64,000 bases of DNA, taken from Rhodocollybia butyracea (taxonomy: Eukaryota; Basidiomycota; Agaricomycetes; Agaricales; Omphalotaceae). This document shows, piece by piece, positions 24,815 through 47,103 of the stretch. Each line of letters begins with the position of its first letter. The stretch's first letter is position 1. The notes below the pieces were generated by a model. That model was not told the origin of the DNA. It did not search any database and saw nothing but the letters and a program-made list of their open reading frames with translations. The position numbers were made by a program, and so were the translations under genes. The stretch lies in assembly GCA_015501585.1 (NCBI GenBank), contig JADNRY010000042.1, positions 124,001-188,000 of the forward strand, read 5' to 3'.

Positions 24815-24822
24815 ACTGTACA
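24815..24822. repeat. 8-bp target duplication ACTGTACA, left copy
   Basis: It lies directly outside the left TIR at 24823. The identical octamer lies directly outside the right TIR at 47096-47103. The motif overlaps a palindrome (GCACTGTACAGTGC would be the empty site), which may reflect target preference. Confidence 0.65.
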
Positions 24823-24990
24823 TAGGGATCCGCACCGTAATCGTATAATACGGTTGACGGTACGGTTACGGGGGTAGCCGTAACCTTACCGTAGAGCTGC
24901 TCAGCGTCAGCTATGCGGTTCGGCTTTGGTACGGGATTCATACCGTATAGGCCCGTCAAAGACGGCCGTATTTATTACCAATATACTGAA
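24823..24990. repeat. Left TIR and CGGTACGG subterminal repeats
   Basis: After the 17-bp TIR come ACGGTTGACGGTACGGTTACG and further CCGTA/TACGG variants. A second cluster of the same repeats is at 25525-25625 (GTACCGTACCGTAATAC, GTGCATATACGGTACGG). This is typical subterminal transposase-binding-type repetition. Confidence 0.65.
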
Positions 24991-26229
24991 CACCTTCTTT
25001 GACTTTTATGTTCAGTTGACTTGCAGTTGACTCCTTGTCCAGTCTATTTTGAAAATACAACCTAGACCATAATATAGCTTGAAAAAGTCCAGCTTTTATG
25101 TCACTACCTGCATGTAACGCGTAGCATGAAACCGTAAACGACAATCTACTCCACGTGTAAGTACACTGTAGAGTACCAATGCTGTACTCTAGTAATGACT
25201 AGAGCGGTATCTTGATTCTTGTACAGTATTCTTGGCAGACTGAGTCTCCATGATTATACTAAATTGCAGGAATTTTTATGGAGATTTCAGGTATTATTAG
25301 GTACTTACTTTATAAATATACTGATGCTTATTGCATTTTTTTTTTTCATTTTTTCAGGCAGGAGGATACCATATTCTTTCATCATAGTCACTTGAGGCCA
25401 GAGATAATTCAGTAGGCAGTTATTTTGTACACAGATCAGCTCAGGCTTCAAAGAAAAGGACTTGAGGATGCTCGTTGAAAGACCAGTATAAGTGCATAGA
25501 CATATCTTCAAATACATTGTGATTTTTACGGCCGTACACCGTATTTTTACATGTACCGTACCGTAATACATTTCTCAAGTGCATATACGGTACGGTTTGG
25601 GTGCGGTTATGGTACTATCAGGTACCGTTGAGAGGTCTAAACTGGGGTGAACTTAGAAATGGCTTACACAACCACACCAAACACACACACAACTTATTAC
25701 TCAGTTCGGGTTTTTAGTTCAGCCAAATAATATTTATTTAAAACTTCAATCTATTCAAGTGCTTCCTTGCTACACTGAGTGTTATTTCACTAAGTGCCTT
25801 CCCTTTCAAAGTACAGACTTATTTAAGCTGATCCCCAAGCTCTGAGCTGTCAAACAAATACTATTCCTAAGTCCCTTGGTAAAATCACAAATTAACACAA
25901 GTCACAACTGACCAGAGGGTGTCCCTATAACTCAGACAGAGCTCTGACTGCAGCCTAACTGTGGTTTGAAAATAATATTCAAAGTCCTTTCTAAGTCTTT
26001 GTCTTAACTTCTCTGCACTCAGTTCACACTGAATCTCTTTCTGTCTCTTTACTCAAGTTCAATTGCTTGTCAATTTCTCTCTGTAAATCCCAGTCTTTAT
26101 ATCAATTCAATCTTTTAGTAGTAGCCTGATAAGGAGCTGCTACACCTGGTGGGGGTAAGAAAGAATGCTTTTCTCTTCATTTCCTTGCCTTTTTATACTC
26201 CTAGGTCCTTGAAATTTTCTTAATTAAAT
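24991..26229. other. Non-coding left arm of the giant element
   Basis: AT-rich sequence with the second CGGTACGG cluster at 25525-25625, a poly-T run at 25338 and a CT-rich stretch at 26010-26110. No gene is seen. Confidence 0.5.
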
Positions 26230-26660
26230 AAAATACGATGACCTCAGTTTAAACTGAGGTGGTTGGGATCATATTTCAGTTTAACTCGTTTAAACTGTAC
26301 TACTATAATAAGAAATCATACAGACGACTTTCTACCTAGTTCAAACTGTTTAAACTGTCAGTTCAACTGGTTTGAACCGCCACATTGCGATTAATTAATC
26401 GTGAATAAACCGAACTGGGAACCAGTTTAAACGGGGTTAACCCGTTCAAACGAGTTCAACTTGTTCGAAGGCGGATTAACTGCAACTACCTTGTTTGAAA
26501 TAGCCCAGTTTAAACTGGGTTAAAACGGTTCTTACCTAGTTTCAACTAGTTCATAACCAGTTAAACTACAAAACGAGCCGAGGCGAGGGTTTATTCCGAA
26601 GTTTAAACTAGGTGAACTAAACTCAGTTAGACTAAAAGACAACGCTTTATGAGATTAAAC
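26230..26660. repeat. GTTTAAAC / GTTCAAAC subterminal array, left
   Basis: At least a dozen variants of AACTGGTTTAAAC, GTTCAAACTGTTTAAACTG and AACGGGTTAACCCG in both orientations. A matching array lies at 45360-45950. The two arrays enclose all cargo genes. Confidence 0.7.
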
Positions 26661-26704
26661 CGCAAAACTAAACACGATAAGTAATTAAGTGTAAGCAAAT
26701 CAAA

Positions 26705-29430
26705 TTAGTTCTTCTTCTTCTTCTTCGGTGGTTCCTTGATGGCTTCCTCCATGCTTCCTCCTGCACCCAGAGTTTCCCTGGGGGGACGTCCACGTTTCTT
26801 GGTGGCGGAGGGGACTACCGGAGTAGTGTCCAGTGCGGGAGGAGGGCCAGCGACTGGAGTATCTGGGACAGCTATCGAAGCATCGAGGCTCATAGCGGAA
26901 GAACTGGCGTCCTTCGTAACACCCGTTATGTTCCTTGTACTCCGACGGGTTGGCTCTAGTCCAGTTTTGGGTTTCCTGGGCTTTGGCTGTTTCACGGCGG
27001 GTACAGGCGCCTCGATGAGAGCAAGTTGGTTGGAAGGAGGCGGTGCAGGAGGTAAGACAGTGTCGATATCTGAGAGTGGAGAGCTTTGACAACCAACACC
27101 TGTGTCTGATTCTGCGGGTGTTTCTTGTATAGCCGGATCCGAAGGTGTGACGAATGCTATCGGAGCGGTTGTTGGACCTTCTTTGGGTTCCGGAAAAGTC
27201 GGGACAACAGCCATTGTTGTTCCTTCTCCTTCTCCTTCATCGGCAGCAGCAGCGGCAGCAACAGATGTGTCCATAGGTGTGGGGAATGTGCCAGCCATTG
27301 GACCGCGGACAGTGAGCTCAGGTACGGCGATTGAATCCCGAGATAATGTGGCCCCCTCAGGTATAGTCTTCGGATCCACAACTAACGCAGCAGTGGGGGA
27401 AGGGGTACTAATCACAATGGAAGGTGGCATGGGGCGTGCAGCGTAAGGTGCATCAAGAACAGCCATGGCAGCTGTGGGTGTGACATTGAAAACCAACGAC
27501 GTAGAAGCAGCAGAGATCGCTGCGGATGTGGTCGATGTAGTCATCGTAGATGGGGGAGGTGGGGTACTACAAAGTGTCATTGGGCGTGCGCCGTCCGGTA
27601 CAACAACAGGCGCGGCAGCTGCGGGATCATTGCAAGCCAACGACGTAGAAACAGCAGAGATTGCTGCGGATGTGGTCGATGTAGTCGTTGTAGACGGGGG
27701 AGGTGGGGTACTACAAGGTACTATTGGGCGTGCGGCACCCGGTACAACAACAGATGCAGCAGCTGCGGGTGGGGCATTGCAAACCAATGACGTAGAAGCA
27801 GCAGCAGAGGTCGCTGCGGATGTGGTCGATGTAGTTGTCATAGATGGGGGAGGTGCTTCAATCACTGGCCCACCTGCAGGGGTATCAGAAGTAGTGTTAG
27901 TATCTACATCGGCGCGAACAGTCTTGTCGGAGCGTTGAGAGAAGCGAAAAGACTTTTTCTTTATCAAGTACTCGACTAAATCGAAAACTTGACTGCACTT
28001 CATGCGCTCAGGGTGATGAAGCGGTGCTGGAAAAACGAATTTATCATGGTCGTAAAAATCACTGGGGGATTTCAACAGTTCCTCCCAAGGAAGTTCTGTG
28101 TCACTGCCGCGCTCTATACAGTTAAGTCAGCCATATTGATTTCAAAACTGAATAAATAAGAAAAACTCACTCCACGTTGCCTCAAAAAAGTCCTGGGTCA
28201 ATGTGACCAACTCTGCCAATGAGACATGGTCGATGTCAACAGGAGGGAAAACGGGGTAACCCTCATCATCACAAGTCCAGGGTTTGCGGACAAGCTCCTC
28301 AGGCAATGCTGCCTCGGCCCAACTTGTCCACAAGTTGAAAATGTTGGCGTGAAAGTGCTTCGCAGCATCTTCGGGCTTGACAAAAGGGACACACGTGTCA
28401 TAGAAGACCTTGCGGCTCGTTCCGCCAGATGCACTGTCATCGAGATGGTCAGCAATGAGGAAAAAATAGAGGGCAACTGAAGCATACCAGCCAGACACCA
28501 AAGCCCCTTCTTCGTCGCGAAATGAATACAACATCACTCCTTCAAAGGCTCCAATACGTCCCGAATCGGCAATCGCCGCGAGGAATCTAGAGAAAGCGTC
28601 TTTGAGTTCCGCTTGATCCCTATTTTAAAAAATATAAGAAACAAGCAATTGAACTTGGCAAAGGTCACATACAGAGAAACAGATACCTGCTTGGCTTCTT
28701 CATCCCATTCCTGCTTCTCCTCGACACTCAAGTCATCCCAATTCTTCTTCAGCATCTTCTGGTAGTTAGCCGCTTTGTTTCCATCCAACGATCGGGCCTG
28801 CTCTTTGATTTCCGAGGACTTCAAGTCCTCGAAGTACTTCCGGCCAGAGCCAGGAAAAGTTAGCTTCAGCAACGTGTCGATGATCTTCTGGGCATCTTTC
28901 TTGCTAAAGGTAGGATGTTGTGACACTGGCTGAACGACGTTGGGCCGCTGGACAATTGTTGACTGTGTGGCAGCCGCTTCATTGCATAGTTCCGGTGATT
29001 GTGGAACACGCGACGAATTGCCTGCGAAGACATAAGCTGCCGAATTGTAGAATAACCAAAAAAGCCTACCTCCATATCTTTCTTTCTGTTTCTCGGGGAT
29101 TAAAGGATGCGTCGTGTGAGCGAAAACGCCAGTCCGGGGAGTAGCCGAGATCATCGCCCAGATATTTTCCGCTGTGCTGTCCCTCCATTGCTTTAGGGGT
29201 TTAGAATCTTTACTGTCAGAAGTGGCGTTGTCCGAGACTACATTTTCGTAGTCTTTAAGGTACTCCTTCTCAATGGTTGCTTTGATATCGCCCTGAATGC
29301 TGTTCTAATCGGATATTACCACAGCGGGCCCGGGAGCAACTGCTACACCGGCGACAGGTCTATCGGGTGGAGTGTAGCCAGGAGGAGGAGTCACAGGGCC
29401 GGCATGGCCTGGGTTGCATCGAGGTGGCAT
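26705..29430 (-). pseudogene. AT-hook, HMG-box-like nuclear protein gene of the KDZ cargo (one in-frame stop)
   Basis: Four exons keep one frame: 29070-29430, 28673-29021, 28171-28619 and 26705-28113 (855 codons). The only lesion is a TAG at 29305-29307. Residues about 195-235 hold an HMG-box-like block (AANYQKMLKKNWDDLSVEEK, then QEWDEEAKQ), also typical of Agaricomycete repeat-encoded proteins. A conserved middle block follows (FRDEEGALVSGWY). The C-terminal half is Ser/Thr/Pro/Ala-rich with three tandem units of about 50 residues (27440-27870). The extreme C-terminus has an AT-hook-like core KKRGRPPRE and a KKKKK tail. A TATAAAAAG box lies 62-70 bp upstream of the ATG. It probably binds DNA in the nucleus; its role in transposition is inferred only. 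The gene is divergent to the 706-aa gene on the other strand. Confidence 0.6.
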
Positions 29431-29491
29431 GATATCAAAAGTAGCTAGAGTTTATGGGTTGTGAAAAGAGGAGGTGGGGATCCTGGGACAG

Positions 29492-29500
29492 CTTTTTATA
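29492..29500 (-). promoter_or_regulatory. TATA box (TATAAAAAG) of the AT-hook gene
   Basis: The minus strand reads CTTATAAAAAGC about 65 bp before the ATG at 29430. The same core occurs before two other cargo genes (40531-40538 and 42541-42548). Confidence 0.5.
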
Positions 29501-29659
29501 AGTTCGTCAAGAACAATAAGCCTCAATGCTTTGACCTACTTTTTGACCTATTTCAAACAGGGCCACAGATCCACAGGTCTTTTCTTTTGTGCAAAGATAA
29601 GCGATCCACCACGACGTGCGGCATAGATTTTACCGTAAAACGGAGGTCATAGCACTGAT

Positions 29660-29880
29660 CAGAGGTCGCAGAAAAAGCCAGCATGCGCTAGCTCTTAGCC
29701 CACCAACAAGCGTTTCTGGCGTCAACTGTGGTATTACTATTAGAATGTGGCGTTGAGGCGAAAGCCAGCAGCCGGTAGATTTACCACTGAACAGGCGTTG
29801 CTGAATATTGAGTGAGGGTCGAGAAGCCAGCATGCGCTAGCTTTTACCAGCAACAAGTGTTGCTGGTCAAATGTTGTGAA
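29660..29880. repeat. Three imperfect repeats in the divergent promoter region
   Basis: AAGCCAGCATGCGCTAGC at about 29676 and 29823, with a weaker GAAAGCCAGCAGCCGGTAG copy at 29759. Each is followed by a CAACAAG(C/T)GTT-type block. They sit between the divergent genes at 29430 and 30276 and could be shared regulatory sites. Confidence 0.5.
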
Positions 29881-30275
29881 GGAAGAGAGTTAAGTCCAGT
29901 CCGGCCCGTACCTCACGTGAATTTCTTTTCGTCGTATGCGCGCTTCATGACCGCTTCAGCAATACAAACTTCCATCCTGCTTCTGCTATTGACCATCCAT
30001 CCAACATGAGTGCGTATCGTAGACTGTAGACATTGCCTCTGTGACGCCTGTCATTTGAGCTCTCTGACGCTTTGTCATTGACTCTGCAACATTGAACTCT
30101 CCTGTATTGATCCATATGCGCATGATGAAGTACATTTGTTTTTGCATGTTCGATGCCCACCTAAAAGGGTTCACCCTCAGTCTCACCGAAAACGACCTCC
30201 TTTGCAACTGCAGTAAATCCGAAGATGGTAAGTTGTACTCTCCTCATCTCACCCAGTTGTCTCATTAAATCTTAG

Positions 30276-33200
30276 ATGGCTCAGGCCACGCAAAAAGCAT
30301 CGTCAATTGTACGTGACAGTATCGCGCGGACTCTTCAGTCTCGTTGTATAACCTTTTCTTTTTCTATTGTAGTGTCTCTACCGTCGTCTGTTAAAGAAAT
30401 ACCCAGTGTTGCCAAATTGTATTCATTTTTGAACCAACTTACTTATTCTGATGGCCTCGCCGGTGCGCTTCTCGCGACAACCAAAGAATTCCTCACTTCT
30501 CCTAATTGTGACTACCTTCCCGATCCCCCACTTGGCTCCACTCGCAACCTATATTGTCGGAGTGATGCTCGCTATGGTCAGGATGACCCCATCTGTTGGC
30601 CTCAGCCTTATAACCCTCGCTATCCTTTCTATGCTGCTATTTCCAAAAAGCCCACTGATCCGCACTCTTTTGAGTCTAGTATCATGTGGTTGGACTTGCG
30701 AGAGGGAGATCTTTCTTTCACTTCACAAGGTGAAGAACGCAAAGAAGGGATTGTTAAATCCGAGATCATGACAGCCTTGCAGCGGAAAATCGCACTGTTG
30801 AAGCCTCGTGTCAGTGTATTTTATGAGGGAAATCCTGATAGCACTCGTCGGACATTCCTCAAGGAGAATATAGATAGCATTGACCTGTTCTTAACGCGTT
30901 TGGGCACTGTATCAGCCATGCTTTGTGACCAGCAGCATGGGTTGACGGAACTTCAACGGGCCTATCTCACTGCCAAGGCCATCCTTGACTTTCACCGATT
31001 GGTGGAGAAATCCAGGATCTCCGATTCCCCGGCCACCGTTGACACTGACAAGATGGGATGTTTCGTTTGGAATGACACCGAAGCCAGAATGCTATACTTT
31101 GCTGGATTACCAGTATTTTACATTCACCCTTGGTCTGCCTTTGACCATCAAATCATTGAGAAAGTAGTTCCTTTACAGCAACCCTGCTTCCCTCCCCCGG
31201 CGAACCCTCCATATCGCCCAATTTTAACTTCTCAAGCCGGATCTGATGGTAAATTTGGTGCTATTTGTATGGCCACGCATAAATGTTTTGAGACTATAAG
31301 CCCCTTCGAGAATATGCATCTGCCTGGGGCCTATGCTTCCTCCTATGTTATCGGTCAGGGTCGGATTATGGCTCCCGCCTCATCCCCAGCTAGCACGAGT
31401 GTTCTTCCTCAAACTAGTCAACCTGCTTCTCGTCACTCGGGTGCCACGCGTCATCCAGCACGCAAGTCATACAAGCAACGCCAGTCAACATCGAATCGTA
31501 GGCACGCTCTTTATACTCAGGATACATATTGCTGACGTGTTACTCATTAGCTCCAAAACCGCAGTGCGATATCTTTGGTGATCTACCGAAGGATGATCCA
31601 CTGGTCCCGCCCGTCATTCCGGCTTGGCGTGATGTGAATGAAACAATTCGGCAGGATGGGGTAACAGCTCAGAAGAAGCTCCTAGTTGCACCAGATGCCG
31701 GTCTATTCTTTGGTCTGCAGACTGAGTCTCGCCAAACTCCATATTTCTTCATGTGGCAGCATTTTAGGCCCGTGTATCTTCGCGGTTTGCGTGCTGGTAC
31801 ACCTCCACGATCTGTGGAATTTTGGCGCAAAATGCTTGCCTACCCATTCTTAAACCTGGTTAATGTTATGACCCGGATCTAAATCCTATACACCCAATCT
31901 TTTTTCTTCTGTAACCAACTATGAACACTATCATTAATACTTCTACTTAACATTTTACATTCATTAGTTATTCAACACCATTTGGGTTAATGCTGCACAC
32001 ATTCTTCCAGAACACCATTAACAGTCACTGCACAGTCTGCACAGTCATGACATCGTTCTAGCTCCACAACTATGATGTCATCTTGCTACTCCACAATCAT
32101 GATGTCATTCCATTGCTCCGCAGTTATGATATCACATCACTGCTCCACAGCTATGACATCATTGCATAGCCTCTTTACATCAATGACTCAATATCAGTCA
32201 TTGCACAGCCAGATATCTGAGTCAACTACGGTTCCGCATACATGACTCAATATTAGTCATTGCACAGCATTACATAGTCAGACTGACTCATCCGCAGTAT
32301 TTCCGCAGTTATGACTCAAATCTAGTCATTCCGCAGCATTTCCTAACTAGTACACATTGCACAGTATATAAGTAGTCTAGATTTACCAATGTACGTGAGA
32401 CGTATTATTTTTCTTAAATCCAAACCCCCACTTGTTTGCTGTTATCACTTGTGTGAATCACCAGACCAACTCATTGTATCTTGTTGAGCTATCTCCAAGC
32501 TACAATACACATTTATACATCTTGTTGAGCTAACTCCAAGTTGTATCCACTAACATTCACCTGTTGAGCTATCTCCTAGTGAATACTTCTTTAATTGTCA
32601 CTTGTTGAGCTATCTCCGAGTTGCAACTTCCTATTACTTGTTGAGCTATCTCCAAGTATCAGACATCACACTCACTATTACTTGTTGAGCTATCTCCGAG
32701 TACTAGACACCACACTCACTATTACTTGTTGAGCTATCTCCGAGTACTAGACACCACACTCACTACTACTTGTTGAGCCATCTCCGAGTACTAGTTCTGA
32801 TTCATATTACTGCTTGTTGAGCTATCTCCGAGGGTAATCATATTATTATTTGTCGAGCTATCTCCAAATAATAAGTTCTGTGAGTTTCATATTACAAACT
32901 AGTTACTAACTTTACTTGAGCCTAGTTGTTTGAGTATATATTTTTTGCCTAGCGGTTTCAACGAACGGAAAGGCTTGCTCTATAATCTCATTAATTTCTC
33001 TTATCATTTTTACTGCTGAGTTACGTACTGTGAAGGTTTGGACAAGACTATTGATCGAGTCATAACAGTTAAATGCAACGCCAAAGTCACAGGGAAGTTG
33101 CAGATCCAGCTTGAGGCACAAATATACGTTGAAGATTCTATCAAAGCTTACGATGCCAACATGACTTTTCGTCTGCCATCTCTCGAAGGAGCTGTTGATC

Positions 33201-33658
33201 CAGTTATAGCACATCGTCTCATACGTGAAATTTGCATGATCAACTTTTGTTCAGAGCTCATGTATACCGATAAGCTATTGGACCAGACTAGACCGCAGCC
33301 CAGTCGAGACCTTACTATTGCTGAATTGGATGTTACCATTTCGCGACATCAGCACAAATGCGATGGGCTCATTGAGTGGATCTTCTTCTATAATGGGCTT
33401 GAGCCTGATCCTAGCATTGATTATGGAATAGTTGCTGTGGATTGGGATAGGCGGTATGAGGCTTTGAGGACATTTTGGGCTCTTTTGGATACATGGCGTG
33501 GCGATAAGTCATTGCTTTGGCGACGCGGGATTGATATGGACTTGAGTAAACTGGAATATGCTGAAGGAGCTCAATGGGAGAGACTACTGGCTGAGTTCTA
33601 TGTCCAGAGCGTTTTCAGTGTGCTAGGTCGTCCTCCATCTTTGCCTAGACGTTTGTAG
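30276..33658 (+). pseudogene. 706-aa uncharacterised Agaricomycete gene of the KDZ cargo, interrupted by a solo LTR
   Basis: The exons are 30276-31497 and 31551 onward; the 53-bp intron has a GCTGAC branch-like site. Exon 2 is interrupted at 31863 by a 1.2-kb solo LTR and resumes at 33073. With the LTR and one TSD copy left out, the frame is open for 706 codons with no other lesion. I recognise the general pattern (RAYLTAKAILDFHRLVEK, CFVWNDTEARMLYFAG, VFYIHP, a Pro/Ser-rich middle, DAGLFFGLQTE, and an ending with FGR-type GRPPSLPRRL) as a large multicopy family found near transposon genes in mushrooms. I know no biochemical function for it. Its end overlaps the antisense end of the KDZ gene by about 60 bp. 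Confidence 0.6.
31864..33067 (+). mobile_element. Solo LTR (1,204 bp), TSD GTTAA
   Basis: It starts TGTTATGACCCGGATC and ends GATCGAGTCATAACA. GTTAA is found directly before (31859-31863) and after (33068-33072). A TATATAAG box at about 32364 gives a plus orientation. Internally there are TGACTCAATATTAGTCATTGCACAGC-like units, then about ten copies of CTTGTTGAGCTATCTCC with a 36-48 bp period (32480-32870). It splits the 706-aa gene. Confidence 0.9.
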
Positions 33659-36600
33659 TTTGGAGCATGATTCTGTACTCCGTTAGGCAAACGCGTCGCT
33701 TTCTCAGCCTCTTTCTCCCATTCTGGTATCCTGTTATGGTAAAGGATGCAGCAAGAGGCAAATTCTTCTTGTTTGATCTGAAAAAGGTCCTCCGCCTCCT
33801 TGTAGCCTTTAGTCAGCGATTGATGTATTTTCGTGGTTTTGAGCCAGTTCCAGTAGGTGTAGTGATCGGTCAGAACTTCCATACGGTGACCAGAGTTCAT
33901 TTGCCGAATCGAACCACCCAGTTGATTGGTTTTGACCCAAGGCTGCTTGGCCGTTTTGCCATGGAAGTGCCCGGCACCAGGAATGAAGGTAGTGTTGAGG
34001 TCGTATCGGCACAGATCTTTATGATCCTGGATGTGTAAGGCTGGGATCAAGCAACGGAACCGTTTTTACGAGCTCCAGGAGATGTGGGAAATTCTTGGCA
34101 AATCTCTTACAGAGATTAACGCAGTACTGGCAATTGCAGTCGTAGGAGAGCAGATAATCGCTAGCACCAATGGGTTCAGGAACGCGATTGAATCGCGTTG
34201 TTATGACTCGATCAATAGTCTCGTCCAAACCTTCACAGTACGTAACTCAGCAGTAAAAATGATAAGAAAAATTAATGAGATTATAGAGCAAGCCTTTCTG
34301 TTCGTTGAAACCGCTAGGCAAAAAATATATACTCAAACAACTAGGCTCAAGTAAAGTTAGTAACTAGTTTGTAATACGAAACTCACAGAAGTTATTATTT
34401 GGAGATAGCTCGACAAATAATAATAATAAGATTACCCTCGGAGATAGCTCAACAAGCAGTAATATGAATCAGAACTAGTACTCGGAGATGGCTCAACAAG
34501 TAGTAGTGAGTGTGGTGTCCAGTACTCGGAGATAGCTCAACAAGTAATAGTGAGTGTGGTGTCTAGTACTCGGAGATAGCTCAACAAGTAATAGTGAGTG
34601 TGGTGTCTAGTACTCGGAGATAGCTCAACAAGTAATAGTGAGTGTGATGTCTAATACTTGGAGATAGCTCAACAAGTAATAGGAAGTTGCAACTCGGAGA
34701 TAGCTCAACAAGTGGCAATTAAAGAAGTATTCACTAGGAGATAGCTCAACAGGTGAATGTTAGTGGATACAACTTGGAGTTAGCTCAACAAGATGTATAA
34801 ATGTGTATTGTAGCTTGGAGATAGCTCAACAATATACAATGAGTTGGTCTGGTGATTCACACAAGTGATAACAGCAAACAAGTGGGGGTTTGGATTTAAG
34901 AAAAATAATACGTCTCACGTACATTGGTAAATCTAGACTACTTATATACTGTGCAATGTGTACTAGTTAGGAAATGCTGCGGAATGACTAGATTTGAGTC
35001 ATAACTGCGGAAATACTGCGGATGAGTCAGTCTGACTATGTAATGCTGTGCAATGACTAATATTGAGTCATGTATGCGGAACCGTAGTTGACTCAGATAT
35101 CTGGCTGTGCAATGACTGATATTGAGTCATTGATGTAAAGAGGCTATGCAATGATGTCATAGCTGTGGAGCAGTGATGTGATATCATAACTGCGGAGCAA
35201 TGGAATGACATCATGATTGTGGAGTAGCAAGATGACATCATAGTTGTGGAGCTAGAACGATGTCATGACTGTGCAGACTGTGCAGTGACTGTTAATGGTG
35301 TTCTGGAAGAATGTGTGCAGCATTAACCCAAATGGTGTTGAATAACTAATGAATGTAAAATGTTAAGTAGAAGTATTAATGATAGTGTTCATAGTTGGTT
35401 ACAGAAGAAAAAAGATTGGGTGTATAGGATTTAGATCCGGGTCATAACACGCGTATGAGAAAGGCCGTGTTGCACAGCGAAGTCAGTGAAACAGAAACTT
35501 GGGTTTCGTCAGATTGCTTTTCAGATGTTCAAAAGTACAAACTCACCCTTCTCCCTTCTGTAGATTCATTGATGAACGTATGAAGCAGTGGGAACAGGCG
35601 AGATTCACCACACCAGAGTAGCGCATGTTCTTGAACTTTTTCTTGTTCTGATTATTGACGACCTTGAGGTAATTACAAGTGGATTTCTGGAATAAAAATG
35701 CAGGTTAACTTGATGTGAGGAAAACAAATCTTCTACCTCTTGGTCTTCTGAAGTGCTCTTTAGATATTCATCAGCTTTCACCTGGTCAGGAAAGTAGCCG
35801 ATCCCATTGTCCGCAACTAAACAGATGTCGTTCGGATCCGTGTTTTTTATGTATTGACCCAGATGGAAATTCCTGTCAAGCATCCATTGCTCTTGATTTA
35901 GATGTCTAATCCACAAAGTCGGTCCCCAAGGTCATAAAAGCATGATAGAGAACCGTACCTCAACTTCTCCGGTGTCCTTTCCCATCCTGGCTCCATGTTG
36001 AACCCATCTTCTGGACAAGCCACACAATGTTTTACTATGGAACCCGGCGTTCGGTGAGGGAACTCAGCACTCAGGTTGAACGCGAGCCCAGTGTGCTTAT
36101 CCATTCGAAGCTTTCGCCATATGTGGCAGGCGAGTAGAAACTGTTCACGAGGATCCTTTTTAAAGGCGTCAGAATGTATAATGCCTAAAGGGGAAACAAA
36201 CGGAGACGTACTGGAATGGACTCAGTGGCAAAACCATCGGAAAGGCGACAAAGAGCGCCGATGTAATCATAGGAGGACTTTTTCGATGCGAGATGATGTT
36301 CTGTATATTCATCCAAAACCTGAAAGGTTATGAGTGTTCGAGGATCCTTGGCTGATGCAGAAAACAGACGAGCTTTCATGAGCTGCTCAACCATATCAGG
36401 ATCTCCCCGACAATAGCAATAAGAAAGACGAGTGCCATGGATTCCATTTGTATGCACTATGGTGACTTTTTGCCCGTTTCCCGGATTCCGACAACAGCCA
36501 GAAGATTCCAAACAAACATGAACGGAGTGGGTGTTTTGTTCGAGAGAGGAGATATCTGTCTTCCGGTAGTAGCCATCTGCTTGCCAAACTTTGGGCCAGT

Positions 36601-37773: not shown

Positions 37774-38703
37774 TTAATCAGAATCCATCAGTTGATCCCC
37801 CTCGAGCTCATCTTCAGCTGATGAAGCTTTGTCCATCATAGAGACATCTCTGGAATAACCAGTACTAGTATGACCTTCGGAACTGTATTCGCTGGAGTAG
37901 CCGTCCGACAGATAATCGGGACTTGCTTTGCCATAGACTGGGGGGGACGGGACGGGGAGCATTTCGTCTCGCTCTTCAGCTTGAAGCCAGTCCAATACTC
38001 TCTCAAAGGCTGCGGTCATGTCGACAATCTCCTCGTCTTCATCATCACATGCACTGATAGCGGGAGAACTAGGGTGTTCATCTGGAGAAGAGATCAAACA
38101 AAGTCAAAAAGGAGCTCGAGAGCGATAGGCTGACTTACTATTCCCTTGCAAATGACAAATTTCCGCGGTGCTCAGTTCCCGGCTGGTCACTGTAGCCCTA
38201 AGCTTTGGAACCATCTCCAGAAGTATGCCCTCTATGTCCACAAGAACCTTTGCTATAACCTCATCCTGCGGAGGCCAGTGTTGCAACCGTAGACTCAAAG
38301 GTTCAAGTTGTTCCAGAAGCGTTTTGATCAAGCTAGAGCAAGTGTTTGGCTCGACCTGTCGAATGAGGCCGGATCGAGGAACAAAGACTAAAAATGAAGA
38401 ATCAGTAAACCGAAAACTATTTATAAGGGGTGTCTTGTTCCTACTGATTTCAGGCCCTTCATACGCGTTGCGCGGGGGTATAGGCTTCTTTTGAAGCATG
38501 GCTTTGAGCGTCGGAATTTCGCAGATGAGGACTGTGTTGAGACCGGCAATGAGAGAAAGAATGTCAGGCATCTCATCGGGGGGAGTGGCCCAAGAGTAGA
38601 ACAGTAGGTCGTTGACTACATCCTTGATTTAAAGTACTAATTGTTCTGCTGTGTCGACGAGAGCGATAACTTTGGGTAAGATAACAGAAGTGGCAAAGGA
38701 CAT
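37774..38703 (-). pseudogene. Uncharacterised cargo gene, 290 codons, acidic C-terminus, one in-frame stop
   Basis: Exons 38139-38703 and 37774-38081 with a 57-bp intron keep one frame of 290 codons. A single TAA at 38629-38631 interrupts it, which a CAA would explain by one C-to-T change. The N-terminal part is leucine-rich and helical (MPDILSLIAGLNTVL, EQLEPLSLRLQHWPP). The C-terminal 50 residues are Ser/Asp/Glu-rich (YSSEYSSEGHTS). No known domain is recognised. It lies head-to-tail with the KDZ gene and the next three genes on the minus strand. Confidence 0.5.
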
Positions 38704-39530
38704 GGTGAATATGGGAGAGATTTGGGTAGGGGGTGATCCTTTTTAAGCGATAGCGTTTATTGTGTGTTTATGGGTGAATCCCAGGAGACAAAGAACCTGG
38801 TCAAAGCATTCGGGCCCCTACTTTCATACGCCATTGTAGCGGAGTCATTGATGTGTAGAATGGAGTGAACAATGGGCATCGGACACGAGCACACAACGGC
38901 GTTGTGATACTAACCAAGGCATGCATTGGCCATGAGTGCACAACGGGTGTTGTGTACTGAACTTGATGAGACGAGACGACAGGCGCCCGTCTAGATAAAT
39001 AACATCACGTGAGATTCTAGATTTGATAGGACATCTTGGCCGAAATTTGGACAGCACAGCCTCCAGCGAAAATTGTTGAGGTTTCATCAAGTCCTTGCTT
39101 GAGTTCGAGGTTCACGCCTGTGAAACTCTTCCTGCGATGCCTGTCGTAGCACATTCTACTTCGACGCTGTCGTGGTTCTATCCAATGCCTGTTGGATAGC
39201 TGTTTGGATACTGCACTGAAACCACGCTCTCATTAGGGTGAGTTTGGATGCTGGTTGTGTAACTTAGCTAACCATTCACTGGTATTCACTAGTCGCTGTT
39301 TAGGAATCAATTCATCTACCTCGACGGTATCGTCCTATTTAACACCCTGCTGGATATCGCACCAGAAGAATGCTCTTAATCAGGTAAGTTTGGACTTTGC
39401 ATGCTCGAATCCAAGATAACAATTGGATCTTATTTGCAGGAATGTGGTCATTTACAAGGAACAAGTAAGTAAAACTATGGTATAATACATGGGACATTCG
39501 TGACGATTTCATTAAAAGATCAACTGGCCC
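38704..39530. other. Spacer; possible small plus-strand exons
   Basis: Several good donor and acceptor sites occur on the plus strand (GTGAGT at 39239, TTTGCAG at 39438) with short open pieces such as LFRNQFIYLDGIVLFN (about 39300-39350). No complete gene can be built. Confidence 0.3.
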
Positions 39531-40479
39531 TCAATCAGAGTCCCAAGTGAGGTCAATCACCCAGCTTGATGAAGAAGATTGGGAAGTCGATGGACCAGAT
39601 TGGGAGGAGGAAGGGCCTTGCACATCCTCGTCGTCCGATAACTCCAAAACGGAAGAAAAGGAACCAGCATCGTATTCTTCATCAGAGAGCTTGATGACCT
39701 CACGGGCCTTCCCTTTTCGTTTTCCCGTGAACTCCTGCTTGATTTGTTTCTGTTGTGGTTCCTCCGTCGTCTCGGTGCTCTGCTCCCTTTTCCGTTTAAG
39801 CAACAACGATAAAAGGGGTCTGTCTTGAGGTTGCGGACTGGGCTTCACAGGAAATGGCACTGGAAACCCTGCCGTCGGAGAAGTAGCAAGAAGTTTACTC
39901 TTTGCCTCCTTGTTCAACTTTTGTCGTGCAAAACGACCTCAAGCTGTAGATGTCTTTCCCTCCAAAAAGCTGTCAATCTTCGTTTTGACAAGCTCGTGTT
40001 CATTTCCATCGTGGCCAAGAACATCCGGGAGCTTCTTTAGCATGGCTCGGATTCTGGTAGTATCCCCCACAGCAATGAGCCAATCGACAAACTCAATAAA
40101 GGCACTGCATCTGAGTACCTCAGGCAAATCAACGATCGTGTTCTGGGAGTGATTCCCGTGTGCCTCACGGAAATTGGAACAAAGCTAGCGTCATGGGCAT
40201 CAGCGCAGAAAATTTCCTCTGACTTACGCATACGTTGAGGCTTCCGAAGCTTTCACCGTCGGCCAATCCCATCACAACGGTCATAGTGTGGTTGTGCCTA
40301 GCTCCCCCTTTCGGCCCAGCTTTATTGCCAAGGGCGTCGGTAACAAACTTCCTATCAGACTGGTAAAGGATGCCGAAGAGAGCCTTTGCGTAGGCACTTT
40401 TGCCTCGGAAGAACGATGGCAACTGCACACTGCAAGTTGGATTTTGCACATATTTGTCGGTCTTGCATTGAGTGGACAT
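39531..40479 (-). pseudogene. Cargo gene with three C-terminal SUMO-interaction-like motifs, one in-frame stop
   Basis: Exons 40228-40479 and 39531-40184 (43-bp intron) give 301 codons with one TGA at 39939-39941 (CGA by one C-to-T change). The N-terminal part shares KALFGI and the following layout with the paralogue at 41734-42504, including a related helix (IEFVDWLIAVGDTTRIRAML versus LQRYINWLIKVKARDELKAL). The C-terminal part is basic then acidic and holds three hydrophobic-acidic motifs of SIM type: VIKLSDEE, VLELSDDED and a terminal WVIDLTWDSD. A TATAAAAAG box lies about 55 bp before the ATG. SUMO binding is inferred from the motif only. Confidence 0.55.
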
Positions 40480-40530
40480 AGCGGTGGTTTTTGGGAAGAG
40501 GTATCGAATGGGAGCGCTACCAGTGAGTCT

Positions 40531-40538
40531 TTTTATAC
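40531..40538 (-). promoter_or_regulatory. TATA box of the SIM-motif cargo gene
   Basis: The minus strand reads GGTATAAAAAGACTCAC upstream of the ATG at 40479. Core and following GAC match the box at 42541-42548. Confidence 0.5.
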
Positions 40539-40809
40539 CCTTTTTATTTATTTTATGGCCATTGCAAGTTCTTATTGTCCCTCCGCCACCGGAACTTGGC
40601 CATTTGTAGATCATGATTACGGTGAAAGCGAGGATCTTGGTGGATTGGCAAGGCGAGAAATTTCACATAGGTCAAACAATTTGTATATTCTTTACACACT
40701 AAAGACACTTATTCTCGTAGCTCCATCCCCTTTCACAACTGTTATTCAGCCAAACTCGTTTAAACCCCGCTACCGTCAAGTTTTAGTTAGGAACTCTGAC
40801 TCCTCAGTG

Positions 40810-41473
40810 TATTCTGTGTCCCAGATCTTCACTCAATGCTCGAGGGGTCTATAAAGCCCCTGCATCGCGAATAACAGACCCCATTCCAGGTTGTCATATT
40901 CCGCAAGAACGGTAAGGCGTTCACAAGCCTCTATCATGAGACGCCTCCATCCCGCTCTGTGCAGCGACAGGGAGATCTTTCGGAAGAACCTCCTGCCTTA
41001 GTGGAATGAAGTAGAGATTTTGGCGTTGGTTTTATGACTTGGGCTTCCCAAAGTTTCACTCTACGCTCTAGCGGCCTGTAGAGCTTCTGCATCGTGAATA
41101 TCAAATTGTAATCCAAATCATCGCATTTTGCAAGGTTTGTGAGGCTTTTGCAAGCCTCTATCAGGACTTGACAACGATCCTGCTCTGTACAACAACAGGG
41201 GGCTGCTTTGGGATGGGCTTCGATGGAAGTCGGTGGAGTTTCTAGAGTTGGCTTAGCGATGGTTTGACGAGGCTCAACGGTTTTTTCGGAAGCTTTTCCA
41301 CTAGACTTCAGCATACAGGCGTCGTTGGTCTCCTCTTGTTTCATCCGTTTAGGAGGAGGGGACCCAGTGCTGTCTTTGCTTTCGACTGAGTTCCTCTTCC
41401 GCTTTAAGGTCGTAGCGGGCGAAGATGCAACGGGGCATAGTTTAGCAGGTTTCAGTTTGCAAGCAGAAGCCAT
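40810..41473 (-). pseudogene. Cargo gene with tandemly duplicated Cys-Thr-Glu module
   Basis: From ATG 41473 an open frame runs 179 codons to 40934. It starts with a basic stretch (TTLKRKRNSVES, PPPKRMKQEE; a possible nuclear localisation signal). The module CCCTEQDRCQVLIEACKSL...MQKLYRPLERRVKLWE (about 41190-41040) is followed by a second copy CRCTERD...MIEACERL...MQGLYRPLE (about 40985-40825). The second copy is thrown out of frame by a 1-nt shift at about 40945, and it also has a TGA where the first copy has CGA-type Arg. No known domain is recognised. Confidence 0.5.
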
Positions 41474-41733
41474 CGTTCAGGGAGAAGGCTATTGTTTCGG
41501 GAATTGGCAACTTGTGAGTATTTTACTTTGATTTCCAGAGGGTCAAAGCTCAGGTTGCCGCAGGTAGTTTTTTTATTGTGTCACTAAGGCCATTAGCCAC
41601 TTTATTGTGGAGTTTGGGTTAGTCGGCTTTTGTTCTCAGAACACCAGAACATGTTCTATGTCCATCTGGACATTTCGAAATCTCTCCCTATTGTACACTG
41701 TAGCGGCCAAACACGAAATCTGTATTATACACA

Positions 41734-42504
41734 TTAAACAAACGTATTCAACGCTTCCTTCAACTCTGTTAGTGCAACTGTGACCTCGTTGTTCAACATC
41801 AGTGGATCCATCGCCACGGCTTCAATTTCTTTACACATCACTGTAATCTCCTCAACTTTCTGCGGCATGTATCGACTCGTGTATTTGGCTTGCTTGACAC
41901 CATCAGGCCTCCCTTGGTCTACGCCATCTCGTTCGCGTTTCCGGCCATTGAGCTTGGCAGGAGGACCATCAGCAGCGTTGTTGCGGTTCAACAAGGCCAC
42001 TGCTTCGTGGATCTTCTTCTTCAAATGGCGATAGTCATCAGTGGCTCGGCCAAGTTCAGTGATGCGGGAGATCCGGGGAATAAGGCCTTCAGCTCGTCTC
42101 TGGCTTTCACCTTGATAAGCCAATTGATATACCTTTGAAGGAACTCAAGTCTTTCGGCAGGAGTCCACAAACAAACTGAGAGTCTATCATTATCAGGCCC
42201 AGTACAATCGCCACAGCGCTAGAGATAGGTGAGCTACTCATTGATGATTATAAAAGACATGGCTTACACGAACTACTAGAGCAGCGAAGTATCTCTCACC
42301 TGCAGTACCCATATTTACGGAGGTGTGGTGCTTTAGGGTACCTTCAACGCAACTCATAAACTGTTGAACGGAGGAGCCGCCTGTCTCCTTCTGCCATTGG
42401 AGGATGATCCCGAAGAGGGCTTTCGTGAAGTCGGAAGATTGCGAGGCAAAGTTACCGGGAAGAGGTTCGTCGTAAGTTGGATATCTGGCGTAGAGCGAAG
42501 ACAT
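41734..42504 (-). pseudogene. Paralogue of the SIM-motif cargo gene, one-base frameshift
   Basis: Exon 1 is 42270-42504 (or to 42268), starting MSSLYARYP and containing FTKALFGIILQW. Exon 2 starts at about 42175 after an ACTCTCTCAG acceptor. The frame is kept to a CCCC run at about 42075, where one extra C would restore it, then continues through RITELGRATDDYRHLKKK and GRKRERDGVDQG to the stop at 41734. Length would be about 226 codons. It shares its N-terminal half with the gene at 39531-40479 but lacks the SIM tail. A TATAAAAAG box is about 37 bp before the ATG. Confidence 0.5.
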
Positions 42505-42540
42505 GGTTATTATTGAGAGTGTGATGGGAGGTAAGTGGTC

Positions 42541-42548
42541 TTTTTATA
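42541..42548 (-). promoter_or_regulatory. TATA box of the paralogous cargo gene
   Basis: The minus strand reads GTATAAAAAGACCAC about 37 bp upstream of ATG 42504. Confidence 0.5.
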
Positions 42549-43259
42549 CAATTTACAAGTGGCCATTGACCAGCATGCGTCGTAGACCATTCAGGCCATG
42601 GAACTCGTCACCAAATCTCCTTCTATTGTTCTCCGGAACAAAGCATCTCCATCTCTGCTGGTCCAAGTTTCTTTACAAGCTGATGTACCGATCATTGAAG
42701 TTACGGTCCGGTATGAAAGCTTCTACGAAATGAATGTTGAACGGTGTAGACCGTACGGGGCAAACGCGGTGAAGGAAGAGTAAGCCAGCCTCAAACTTCC
42801 GCGGAGGCCTTTTTTGAAGTCGTTCAAAGAGGGGTTGTAAAAAAGTTCTATTGATGATGCAAGACACCTACACCTACAACAAACAACAATACTTCTGTGA
42901 AAGTAGGCTGGGAGTTGTTCAAATCGATTAGCTTGGCATCAACCAACGCGCCCTTTCTGGCTCGTTCACCATCTTCTGTTCTATATCTGTGTCTACGGTT
43001 GTCGGCTGGTTTTCCTATAGGCCGAGAATCGGAGTCCGTGGCTGGTTGAAGAGACTCAAGATTATTGTCAGTTGACAGTGGGCTGGTGTGGAGGAAATTT
43101 TGGAAGGTCGGGATCTGTAGTGGCTGAGCGAGTTCAAGAGACGCGGGGTCGTAGAGATGAAGGAGTTAGAGAAGTAACAAACAAGCAGCCATCTTGTCAC
43201 TCGGCGATGAATACCTCAAAAGCAGGAACTGGGAAAGGTCTTGAAGTTGATTGTTAGAC
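42549..43259. other. Spacer, no gene recognised
   Basis: It contains short frames on both strands (for example 42673-42867 minus) without recognisable motifs. It could be leader or promoter sequence of the tandem units that follow. Confidence 0.35.
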
Positions 43260-43261
43260 AA

Positions 43262-43930
43262 TGGACAAATGAAATACGCAGCTTAGTCCTCAATCTCTTC
43301 GAATGTTCATAAACATCCTTCATGGCCCAATTGTCTTTAGCCAGCATGTTATTGGACAGTTTGAGGAAGTTGGATGCGGTGTAGTGGACTGATGGATGTA
43401 GAGTTAGCGAAAGGAAAAAATATCGGTTGGCGGTTTGAGTAGTCTTGTTGCCCGGGGAGGAAAACTTGAATAAATCGATAACAGGTCCTAAAGATGGTTT
43501 TCAGTCAGGTATCTCAACGAAGTAGGATCTCAATACACAGCTTAGTCCACGAGCTCTTCAAAAGGTCCCAGATATCCTTCCCGCGCATCTCCATAAAGCG
43601 TGTTGATATCAGACAGCTTGAGGAAATTGGATGCGTCGGAGAGAACTGACGGATGTAAAGGGAAGGAAGATTGGTTAGCGGCTCGAGTCGTCTTGTCGCT
43701 GGGCAAGTAACTTGAAGAATTCGAAAACTGGCACTAAGAACAGTTTTCAGATGGTGAACCTCGATTAGACAAGTTCAATACACAGCTTAGTCCACGACCT
43801 CTTCAACGGTCCCACTTATCCTTCATACTCACTTGTCTTCAGTCAGTACGTTGATATCGGATAGCACAAGGAATTCGGTTGTGTGATAGTGAGTTGATGG
43901 GTGTAGAAAGGAAGAACGAACAATGGGCGG
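43262..43930 (-). repeat. Three tandem 255-bp units, each with a related short coding block
   Basis: The string CTTAGTCC(A/T)CGA-like recurs at 43281, 43541 and 43791. On the minus strand each unit reads a related peptide: HPSVHYTASNFLKLSNNM, HPSVLSDASNFLKLSDIN and a weaker PSTHYHTTEFLVLSDIN. Units 2 and 3 end in (L/V)VD and a stop; unit 1 stays open longer (to a TGA near 43200). They look like a tandemly duplicated terminal exon or tiny gene. Confidence 0.5.
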
Positions 43931-43996
43931 CTATACCGTCGAAAGCAAGCACAAACAAATTGACCGATTGCTGGATCTGCGCTCGGTGGTCATGAC

Positions 43997-44622
43997 ATGG
44001 GTCGTCGGGGCCATGCTCAAGCAGGGAAGACCCCTAGAGGCTGGCCACGAAACGCTCGGCAACCATATCTCAAACGCCTAAAGGCTTGGCGCAGAGCGAT
44101 AAAGCGGCTCTTCATGAAATTGGACCATAGTGGTTGGATCTATGTTTTTTACGAGGGAAATGGAATTTTCAAAGTCGGACAAACAAACTGCCTGCGTCGG
44201 CGAAAACGGGAATGGAATTGTAACTGTCCCAACGCTGCCAGGATCTGGCTTGAGGCGTTTTGGACATCCAATGCAACGAGAGCTGGTAAGAATTGATATC
44301 TTATTGATAGCATCACACTCACTCGTATAACTAGAATCACTTTTGCATATTTCACTGGAGGAGCTTTGTGAATGTTGTCCGCGTCACTTATGTGCTTGTA
44401 AGTACTTTTATGCAGATAGTAGCCTTCACCTCTGACATTGACTCTGACTGGCCAGGCGGAACTACTCACGTTGAAAAGTTCTTTTTCTTTGGCTCTCCAT
44501 CGTGGATATACACGGCTACAATTTGCCCAACAATTTTATGGGTATTAGGATTGGTTTGCTCACTCTTGCAGGTGAGTCAAATTCGCAAGGTGAAATTGCT
44601 TATTAAAAGGTTGTCGTTGTAG
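43997..44622 (+). CDS. T5orf172 / GIY-YIG-type nuclease-like protein
   Basis: Exons 43997-44285, 44335-44397 and 44456 onward, with introns of 49 and 58 bp (CTGAC branch in the second), keep one frame. The core GWIYVFYEGNGIFKVGQT carries the GIY-like WIY and YIG-like FKVG elements with the conserved T. It is followed by RRRKREW and, after intron 1, RAESLLHISLEE, then CCPRHLC...HVEKF, the His/Cys arrangement of fungal T5orf172-type proteins. The extreme C-terminus is hydrophobic (ICPTILWVLGLVCSLL) and may really be read through an unspliced intron. It is the only plus-strand gene in the right half of the giant element. A role in DNA cutting during transposition is possible but only inferred. 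Confidence 0.6.
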
Positions 44623-44765
44623 ATCTACTAGCTGATATGTAGGATATGCACTGTGTTAAAGACAAATTGTACATTATTTTTCTTGAAGTGCAATAACTAC
44701 AGCTTTGATGTCTCTTTTGTCTTTTTGTCGAGTCACGAGGCCGCTCATCATTTTGGTGGCTATTG

Positions 44766-44787
44766 TTCTCTCTCTCTCTCTCTCTCC
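44766..44787. repeat. (TC)n microsatellite
   Basis: About ten TC dinucleotides in a row. Confidence 0.8.
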
Positions 44788-45359
44788 AGCGCATTGTGCC
44801 ACTCATAAGCCGTCGTATTTCAATTGCTTTTCCCATGGACTCGTTCCCGGCACGACAATACTTTAGTTCCAAGCAGTAACCCTGTTGTCAACCTACCTCG
44901 CTGAAGTAAGGTACTCGCTGTCGCACCGCCATCACCTTCAGAGTTCTCAGATCAAACCAGTCTAGGACTGGTTCCAGTGACTCTCACCCACTCCGAATGA
45001 CCAATTCTTTCAGTATCCTCTTTCCCATGTTCCAGAACCTCTTCAATCCATATGATCACTCTGCAATTATAACAACTCGACAATCAAGCATCTTCAGTCT
45101 GAATTAACAAAGGTCCTGGAAAGTGAGTAACTTCAAACCTCTTTGTGAGGGATCACTATATGAGGAGGCGCTTATCTATGGCTTCTCTCAATATCTGAGG
45201 TCAGTTAAACTAGATAATCTATCAAGGTGCGAATGTCTATTGTTTTACTAGTCTTAGCCAGCCTTTTAACCCTCATGTTGTCACAGATCGGCTGTTATTA
45301 TTGTACTCTCAAGGAAGTTTTGGGGGTTTCTGGTGAGTTAGTACTATTTTTCACAGGCT
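44788..45359. other. Non-coding right arm of the giant element
   Basis: Mixed-composition sequence between the last cargo gene and the right GTTTAAAC-type array. No gene is seen. Confidence 0.45.
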
Positions 45360-45950
45360 GACAAATTTAACCAGTTGACAGGTTTAATCAGTTCGGTTAA
45401 TTCGAGTTTAAGTAAGTTGTTCCGGAGCTAAACAGCTTGAAACGAGTTGAAACAAATTTCTGGCTGAATTTTGCTCAAGGATGGCTTGAATTAGTTCAAC
45501 GGGTTTGTAGTTTGAACCAGTTGAAACGGGTTTATGAGTGTTGTCCTAGTTTCAGCTAGTTTCAACAGTTTAACGCTTGGCTGGATTTGTTTACGGAATT
45601 AGTGGTTTGAACTCGTTCAAACGGTTTATAAATCGAATTTCGCTGTAGTTTCACGCGGTTTAACCTCGTTTAACCTAGGTTGAGCAGGTTATTCTTTTAG
45701 TTTACCTTCGCTGTAGTTTCAACCAGTTTAACCTGGTTTGGCTGGGTTATTTTTTTTGTTGTCTTTGACTTGCGCTGTTGTTTTAGTCAGTTTAACCTAG
45801 TTTAACTAGGTTAATCGCGTTATCTGTTCAGTTTGAACTGGATTAAACCAGATATATTTATGTTTTTATAATGTACAATAAGGTTTTGTAGTTTAAACCA
45901 GTTAAGCTCAAATTTGTTTGAAACCATTGCAGTTTGAACTGAGCTTATGG
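45360..45950. repeat. GTTTAAAC / GTTTGAACCAGTT subterminal array, right
   Basis: More than ten variants of AGTTTAACC(T/A)GGTT, GTTTGAACCAGTTGAAACGG and GTTCAAACGG. It mirrors the array at 26230-26660 on the other side of the cargo. Confidence 0.7.
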
Positions 45951-46354
45951 GGTTACTGTAATTAAGGTACCATGGGTTGGTAAGACTCTCTTGGCTTGCC
46001 AAGAGCCAAGAAGATAAATCTCATGTTGCCCTTGTTAGCCATAACTGAGCTTATAAGTGTTCTCCTGGTTCCTACACTGTCCCCAGGGCTCTATATCTTT
46101 GTGTCATGGGTCCTCTACCCAAATTACACCTTTTCTACACCTTTTATTTAATAAGTAACGGAGGGGAGGGAAGAACGATGCATTCCCGATGAGTGGTTCG
46201 ACTTTGATGCGCTTTAAGCGCCGGGCGGTCCGTCCGTCCCGCGGTTCAAGTTTGCGGCGTCGTTCCGTATCTCCCCTTTTCTCTTCTCCTCCCGGGTCCT
46301 ACCGGGTACTTGTATACATGTGGACCGTCCCGTAGGTCGGTCCGAATAAATTTT

Positions 46355-46512
46355 CACTGCATGCAAATCACCATAAATTTTGGTGCAAATAGTAAAATTA
46401 TGTTAAAATTGTATGAAACCTCATACAATTTTAACATAATCTTACTACCTTCACACATGTTTAACATAATTTTACTACTTCCACAAAAATTTATGTTGAT
46501 TTGCAGGCAGTG
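46355..46512. mobile_element. Hairpin MITE, 158 bp
   Basis: The outer inverted arms begin CACTGCATGCAAATCA and end with the inverse of CACTGCCTGCAAATCA. At the centre is a perfect 20-bp hairpin (46397-46416 and 46421-46440, loop AACC). It is AT-rich inside a locally GC-rich region (46190-46640), which itself looks inserted. Confidence 0.65.
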
Positions 46513-47034
46513 TTTATTATAGGCACGTCGCTAGGACGCGCCCCGCCTTTCTTTTACTGCCGGCGCTGGGCCACTTTGATCCCCGGCGCCTAATTCATCA
46601 TTAATCGTCTAGTTTCTCTCTGTGGTTCGTTCCAGGGAACCAGTGCTTCGATTCTCTTACTTTAAACGGATATGGGTTTGCATTATGCTTGCCCTCATTT
46701 GTCTCTCTTCATCTATTTTAATCCTGTCTTGTATATCCCTGTATAGGACTTTTTGTAGTAGGTAGTATTAATTGAATAGACTTTAGATCTGGCAAGCCTA
46801 AATCAATCTAGGTAAATCAATTTGATTGATTTTGAGTTTGTGGGTCAACGATGCATCCTTGCACAGTAATGTAGCCTCTTAAAACATAGTGTATCTCCCT
46901 TCAAATGGGTTTCTACATACTAGATACCTGAAGTGGACCTTCAAAGTGTCTAATACATAATGTACCCTAGGTAGTGACGTGACATGTTTCACGGGGTCTT
47001 TTAAATGATGACATTTCGCTTGAATTTCGGCGTG
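46513..47034. other. Non-coding sequence near the right end of the giant element
   Basis: GC-rich then AT-rich sequence with no open frame of note. Confidence 0.4.
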
Positions 47035-47095
47035 TCACCGTATGGAACCGTAATTTGTACGGCCGTAGCCGTATACGGTACGGTGCGGATCCCTA
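47035..47095. repeat. Right subterminal repeats and TIR
   Basis: ACCGTATGGAACCGTAA, GTACGGCCGTAGCCGTA and TACGGTACGGTGCGGATCCC lead to the terminal TA. This is the inverse of the arrangement at 24823. Confidence 0.65.
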
Positions 47096-47103
47096 ACTGT
47101 ACA
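47096..47103. repeat. 8-bp target duplication ACTGTACA, right copy
   Basis: Identical to 24815-24822. Confidence 0.65.

Follow-up and report, generated by a model that had tools for sequence, protein, structure and literature searches.

Laccaria bicolor and other Agaricomycotina harbor TET-bearing Kyakuja elements, which are described as having a 7-bp target site duplication (TSD), CA..TG termini and no terminal inverted repeats (TIRs) (Kojima, 2025, PMC12730594). The KDZ1-KDZ3 elements reported for Cryptococcus neoformans are 9.2-11 kb long, with TIRs of 139-241 bp, CxC1 and TSDs of 4-8 bp (PMC12810828). In the related species Marasmius oreades, DNA elements are reported to make up 6% of the genome, about half of them KDZ or Plavaka (PMC8290104). 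A literature search, in which subscription papers were mostly outside coverage, showed no description of the KDZ family reported here among the papers listed.

We analyzed a window of 64,000 nucleotides, corresponding to C739:124001-188000 of the 95.6-Mb assembly of Rhodocollybia butyracea, an agaric of the Omphalotaceae. It contains a giant gene-carrying KDZ transposon that is itself nested within other transposons, its actual ends being internal to them and distinct from the short inverted ends noted first (Table 1). Like Kyakuja, this element combines a mushroom KDZ transposase with a 7-bp TSD, an extra gene and a 3' TG; its outermost 15 bp form no TIR, but imperfect inverted repeats lie further in. 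It differs from Kyakuja in its cargo (TET in Kyakuja versus no TET/JBP match among the 110 ORFs that we scanned against Pfam) and in its left end (CA versus AT) (PMC12730594). The Kyakuja-type TSD length was found in the window (TAATTAA) and in a second copy on contig C816 (TTATCAT). The right terminal TG is present in the same two copies, and the left terminus is AT in the window and in C589, C356, C1272 and C816. We do not claim Kyakuja membership for the family, the comparison being one of TSD, termini and cargo at the sequence level. The Cryptococcus elements likewise encode a KDZ transposase that includes a cysteine cluster of the CxC type, but the cluster is CxC1 rather than CxC2, the elements are 9.2-11 kb rather than about 17-20 kb long, and they have long TIRs instead of imperfect subterminal repeats (PMC12810828). 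The Starships of Pezizomycotina are likewise giant fungal cargo-bearing transposons (PMC12134995). The window element differs from them in having a KDZ transposase and no tyrosine recombinase or DUF3435 captain among the Pfam families of the 110 ORFs. That scan (ORFs of at least 62 aa, E ≤ 0.01) returned five families, T5orf172 and two weak DUF matches below cut-off among them. The family belongs to a known class and has the TSD length of Kyakuja; it differs in its cargo and left terminus and, relative to the Cryptococcus elements, in its size.

Table 1. Features of the nested locus, in window coordinates.
Feature	Position	Strand	Basis or detail
Outer hAT MITE TSD ACTGTACA, left	24815..24822	.	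End-pair flank reading
hAT MITE left part, TIR TAGGGATCCGCACCGTA, about 810 bp	24823..25628	+	L023 match; MAFFT alignment with L023 and L027 reaches the break
Repeat A left part, starts TGAGAGG, ends TAATTAA	25629..26227	+	Contiguous copies elsewhere
KDZ element TSD TAATTAA, left, 7 bp	26221..26227	.	Overlap of repeat A halves
KDZ transposon, 19,731 bp, 5'-ATAAAATAC ... GGGGTTACTG-3'	26228..45958	.	Nesting and shared termini
Left subterminal region, 9 GTTYRAAC sites	26243..26608	+	Offsets 16-69 match right end in register
Cargo gene 1 (NCBI model P0020, 823 aa)	26708..29304	-	Exons 29304-28673, 28619-28171, 28113-26708 as modelled in this analysis
Cargo gene 2 (companion), 5' part	30276..31863	+	Relatives reach about 710 aa
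Solo LTR B copy 1, 1204 bp, TGTTATGAC..GTCATAACA, TSD GTTAA	31864..33067	+	Breaks cargo gene 2
Cargo gene 2, 3' part	33068..33655	+	C-terminus LGRPPSLPRRL as in relative P0004
KDZ transposase, later catalytic part, PF18758 positions 124-217	33601..34198	-	Domain piece 33847-34158
Solo LTR B copy 2, 1251 bp, TSD CGCGT	34199..35449	-	Opposite orientation, breaks KDZ domain
KDZ transposase, earlier part, CxC2 cysteine cluster and KDZ positions 49-98	35450..36802	-	CxC2 36188-36802, KDZ piece 35546-35689
Small coding-unit cluster	37777..42543	-	Matched by C589:70328-76765
T5orf172 (GIY-YIG-like) coding fragment	43964..44293	+	24.6 bits vs Pfam cut-off of 20
Right subterminal region, 6 GTTYRAAC sites	45510..45958	-	Sites within 45510-45939
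KDZ element TSD TAATTAA, right, 7 bp	45959..45965	.	
Repeat A middle part	45959..46354	+	Contiguous copies elsewhere
Palindromic MITE, 158 bp, CACTGC..GCAGTG, 3-bp TTT duplication	46355..46512	.	Inside repeat A
Repeat A right part	46513..47036	+	Base 47037 is repeat A's or part of a 4- or 5-bp duplication (A)CCGT
hAT MITE right end, 59 bp	47037..47095	-	Continuation of the same MITE in alignment
Outer hAT MITE TSD ACTGTACA, right	47096..47103	.	Flank reading

The first-pass annotation had read the locus as a single 22.3-kb KDZ transposon bounded by 17-bp inverted ends, and had taken the octamer beside these ends for a Zisupton-type TSD. Zisupton elements make 8-bp TSDs. The 17-bp end TAGGGATCCGCACCGTA is indeed exact at 24823(+) and 47079-47095(-), and both copies are bordered by the octamer. 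Allowing up to 3 mismatches, this end has three matches in the window (0.12 expected), including a third exact copy at 59761-59777(+), for which no exact partner was found within the fetched locus L021, reaching 9.7 kb to its right. Five sites of the motif CGGTACGG are present in the window against 0.23 expected; three of them fall in 24858-25595, the other two at 47076 and 59773. Genome-wide, the 17-bp end is found exactly at 107 places (55 forward, 52 reverse; none for the reversed control). Among the 100 of these places that were listed there are 28 facing neighbour pairs, 20 of them within 1 kb, at spacings of 0.16-0.83 kb. Flanks were read for 15 pairs including the window's, with an exact 8-bp TSD in 11 cases, a match of 7/8 bases in two and no TSD in two. 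The pairs without TSD are those spanning 22.1 kb (C619) and 37 kb (C212), which were rejected as further long elements on this ground.

One pair of ends lies 6.7 kb apart (L016, TSD CGAAGACC) and encodes Dimer_Tnp_hAT (E 7.7e-10, 38.9 bits versus a cut-off of 21.4); we therefore assign the family with the 17-bp ends to hAT. The short TIR, 8-bp TSD and short end spacing of the outer layer are also those of hAT superfamily MITEs, from which it stands out solely as the host of the insertions. In another locus (L017, C722:11490-16774), the hAT ends are 5.3 kb apart with a TSD matching at 7/8 bases, and an ORF between them has sub-threshold similarity to tyrosine recombinases (Phage_integrase E 0.0025, DUF3435 E 0.018), possibly representing a Crypton-like insertion.

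Three blocks in the left 0.8 kb of the window's outer layer match the intact MITE L023 (at 95, 74 and 84% identity), and a stretch of about 190 bp (25160-25346) has no BLAST match. The MAFFT alignment with L023 and L027 runs to ..CAGGTACCGT, and the right end in the window opens with ACCGTATGGAACC.., which continues the same MITE. Because the left part matches intact MITE bodies and the right 59 bp are the missing end, the two apparent ends are those of one MITE of about 0.9 kb with an insert between them. They do not bound the KDZ element, the insert itself being nested, and the octamer is a hAT duplication, whereas the KDZ element has its own TSD of 7 bp and not 8 bp. An origin of the ends in separate short MITEs, which the first-pass annotation had named as incompatible with its reading, was thus found in a variant form, with both ends derived from one interrupted hAT MITE and not from two.

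The layer inside the MITE is a high-copy repeat of about 1.5 kb (repeat A), for which the stretches compared with other copies were 25629-26227, 45959-46354 and 46513-47033. It is unbroken in all 32 distinct other copies among those fetched for comparison (38 loci, six of which duplicate a copy already in the set). The two halves in the window overlap by the same 7 positions in every contiguous copy fetched, these positions reading TAATTAA in the window. We read repeat A as an LTR because it starts with TG, is associated with a duplication of 4-5 bp, and occurs in same-strand pairs with a spacing of about 9.6-10.8 kb (C430, C472, C476). The reading does not draw on the 3' end, which exists in two forms, GTACA or GTGTCA. 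Most of the 28 loci with the end read among L030-L068 go on with TTCGGCGT-ACAGCGTAATT.., and L036 and L050 (one copy), as well as the window, continue with GTCA. The window pieces are 94-100%, mostly 97-100%, identical to the fetched copies, so the insertion into repeat A is young. A copy of repeat A also interrupts the giant element of C589 (C589:73946-74545). The nested order described by the first-pass annotation on both sides is therefore real, and its cause is nested insertion of elements from different superfamilies.

Without the two solo LTRs and their duplications, the KDZ element is about 17.3 kb long. The window holds 20 sites of the palindromic motif GTTYRAAC where 4.35 are expected. 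Nine lie in 26247-26608 and six in 45510-45939, so that 15/20 fall in the outer 0.5 kb at the two ends of the element. Aligned to each other in inverted orientation, the termini are 78% identical at the same offsets 16-69 (E 1.6e-5); the outermost 15 bp are not inverted. The right-terminal 26-mer, allowing up to 3 mismatches, was found at two places in the genome only (the window and C816), and a control gave none. Searching with the first 480 bases identified four other places, each starting at base 1 (26228). C356 and C1272 are nearly identical (99.3% over 3166 bp, with the same flank) and count as one insertion, leaving three independent left-end relatives rather than four.

Two copies, in the window and in C816, have both ends and TSDs. 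The C816 copy (C816:217250-218901, 1652 bp) has both exact termini and a 7-bp TSD of its own, and is an internal deletion derivative keeping bits of the same cargo regions. C589 has the left end, then both cargo genes, KDZ and the cluster on the right, arranged and oriented as in the window up to the contig end, in collinear blocks over 21.5 kb (71-84% identity for DNA, 79-89% for protein). In C1272, the left end, cargo gene 1, cargo gene 2 and KDZ follow one another as in the window, and no match to the right-hand cluster was detected. The right end was sought in C589 and C1272 and not found; the C589 contig stops before it. The left ends of these two copies are preceded by the 7 bases TGATTTT (C589) and GCAGTTA (C1272). 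The class given in the first-pass annotation, a giant cargo-bearing KDZ transposon, is retained, with different ends, a smaller size and a shorter TSD.

The transposase predicted inside the element is confirmed by a KDZ domain (PF18758, E 3.1e-18, 66.7 bits versus a cut-off of 26.6) and by the KDZ-associated cysteine cluster CxC2 (PF18803, E 7e-24). An intact catalytic gene, on which activity but not membership of the superfamily depends, was not found in the window copy, since a solo LTR interrupts the KDZ domain, and further movement of this copy would need help in trans. The inverted repeat spanning 31864-35449 was considered as a component of KDZ architecture and rejected, because it consists of two solo LTRs of one family (LTR B), each with its own 5-bp TSD. 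LTR B has 39 scored places elsewhere with 97-99% identity to the window copies. In C1272 the same KDZ gene is also hit by a solo LTR B (L077, C1272:108001-112000), but at a point about 36 bp from the window's insertion and with a separate TSD, GGGAA. This excludes a single insertion common to the window and C1272 and reflects either a recurrent target or chance.

The product of cargo gene 1 matches the HMG box below threshold (E 0.016) and has an AT-hook-like C-terminus. The gene has relatives in this genome at C589, C1272 and C356; among the best word-sharing candidates scored in the protein database, P0020 matched only itself. The RGRP strings of an AT-hook-like coding unit and the VIDLT string of a SIM-like one, both anticipated by the first-pass annotation, are present as judged by eye. 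Some units of the small cluster have lysine/arginine-rich NLS-like stretches, the SIM-like VIDLT ends the unit at 39534-39938, and two pairs of units are related (E 6e-6 and about 1e-12). The GIY-YIG-like coding unit was also recovered, as the T5orf172 fragment. Five contigs (C1216, C1294, C554, C548, C437) carry DNA similar to the surrounding region (44063-44511) at a total of 7 further places (68-77% identity), and none of these places has a listed KDZ hit within 50 kb. This gene, which lies just past the part compared with C589, may be private to the window copy.

The deposited model of cargo gene 2 runs into solo LTR B. Its product, which we call the companion, matches 19 proteins at E ≤ 0.001, its own entry included, with relatives in Lentinula, Gymnopus, Dendrothele and Stygiomarasmius. 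A Pfam scan of 9 relatives gave no family above its cut-off. The predicted structure is mostly helical, at low confidence (15 sequences, mean pLDDT 63.9, pTM 0.44), and gave no match in the PDB at E ≤ 0.001. A KDZ hit is present within 10 kb at 7/10 strong companion loci and at 3/32 weak ones, and still at 4/6 strong loci when the window, C589, C1272:106118 and C356 are set aside. The corresponding binomial P of 1e-10 is too small, as it assumes independence and an even spread of 90 hand-collapsed KDZ loci.

We consider it very probable that the locus is a stack of successive insertions, made up of a hAT MITE, LTR A and the KDZ transposon, plus LTR B and the small MITE. In this reading, the hAT MITE landed in host DNA with duplication of ACTGTACA, and a family A LTR retrotransposon then entered the MITE with a duplication of 4-5 bp and shrank to a solo LTR. 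The KDZ transposon of 17-20 kb followed, entering LTR A at TAATTAA with a 7-bp TSD, and LTR A was also struck by the 158-bp MITE. The two family B solo LTRs broke the transposase and the companion gene, presumably after the KDZ insertion or else before it. The nesting, the element boundaries and TSDs, the other family members, the deletion derivative and the broken genes are seen directly in the sequences. The CxC2/KDZ transposase may recognise the asymmetric palindromic GTTYRAAC arrays at both ends, cut at 5'-ATAAAATAC and GTTACTG-3', and paste the element into a 7-bp staggered target. The HMG/AT-hook-like, helical companion, small basic and GIY-YIG-like proteins would likely have accessory DNA- or chromatin-binding roles.

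Exact ends and identical octamers 22.3 kb apart are what a single Zisupton-like element with TAGGGATCC ends, an 8-bp TSD and everything between included would look like. We nevertheless regard such an element as exceedingly improbable, as both ends belong to one MITE with a contiguous body elsewhere, the next layer inward is a high-copy LTR-like repeat, the 6.7-kb relative with these ends is a hAT element, and the two other long end pairs have no TSD. The intact 8-bp TSD around the whole block could also be taken to mean that the hAT system moved the nested block by transduction after it had formed, in which case the outer ends would mark a real 22.3-kb move. However, the original insertion of the MITE accounts for the TSD without an extra step, and the other copies of the 22.3-kb block that the first-pass annotation had proposed to look for did not appear, no second one being among the matches listed in searches with its pieces. 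We therefore find this move highly improbable.

A different question is how much of the 19.7-kb insert is carried by the KDZ element, which might be smaller and have received unrelated later insertions, so that most of the cargo would not be cargo at all. The two solo LTRs are indeed separate insertions, the DNA of the GIY-YIG-like gene recurs away from listed KDZ hits, and C1272 has no match to the right-hand cluster. Against this, order and orientation are conserved in C589 from cargo gene 1 through cargo gene 2 and KDZ to the right-hand cluster, at the identities given above, cargo genes 1 and 2 and KDZ are in the same order in C1272, and the 1.65-kb deleted copy in C816 retains bits of the same cargo regions. 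A smaller KDZ element thus appears unlikely, and we retain the stack of insertions with a multi-gene KDZ transposon at its centre.

More tentatively, marasmioid fungi may harbor a lineage of giant multi-gene KDZ elements with a conserved set of genes (the Pfam-less helical companion, the HMG/AT-hook-like protein and the small basic proteins), in which GTTYRAAC arrays replace long inverted repeats and the companion is a second transposition protein; we see this as a possible rather than the expected outcome.

The case corrects a tempting misreading of nested ends, and carries the warning that 8-bp TSDs come from hAT and also from some KDZ elements and can therefore mislead. It brings to light a giant KDZ family with boundaries and TSDs seen in two copies, and with non-transposase genes that recur together. 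With the companion beside KDZ at several loci and homologues in related mushrooms, the question of a second protein in KDZ transposition becomes testable.
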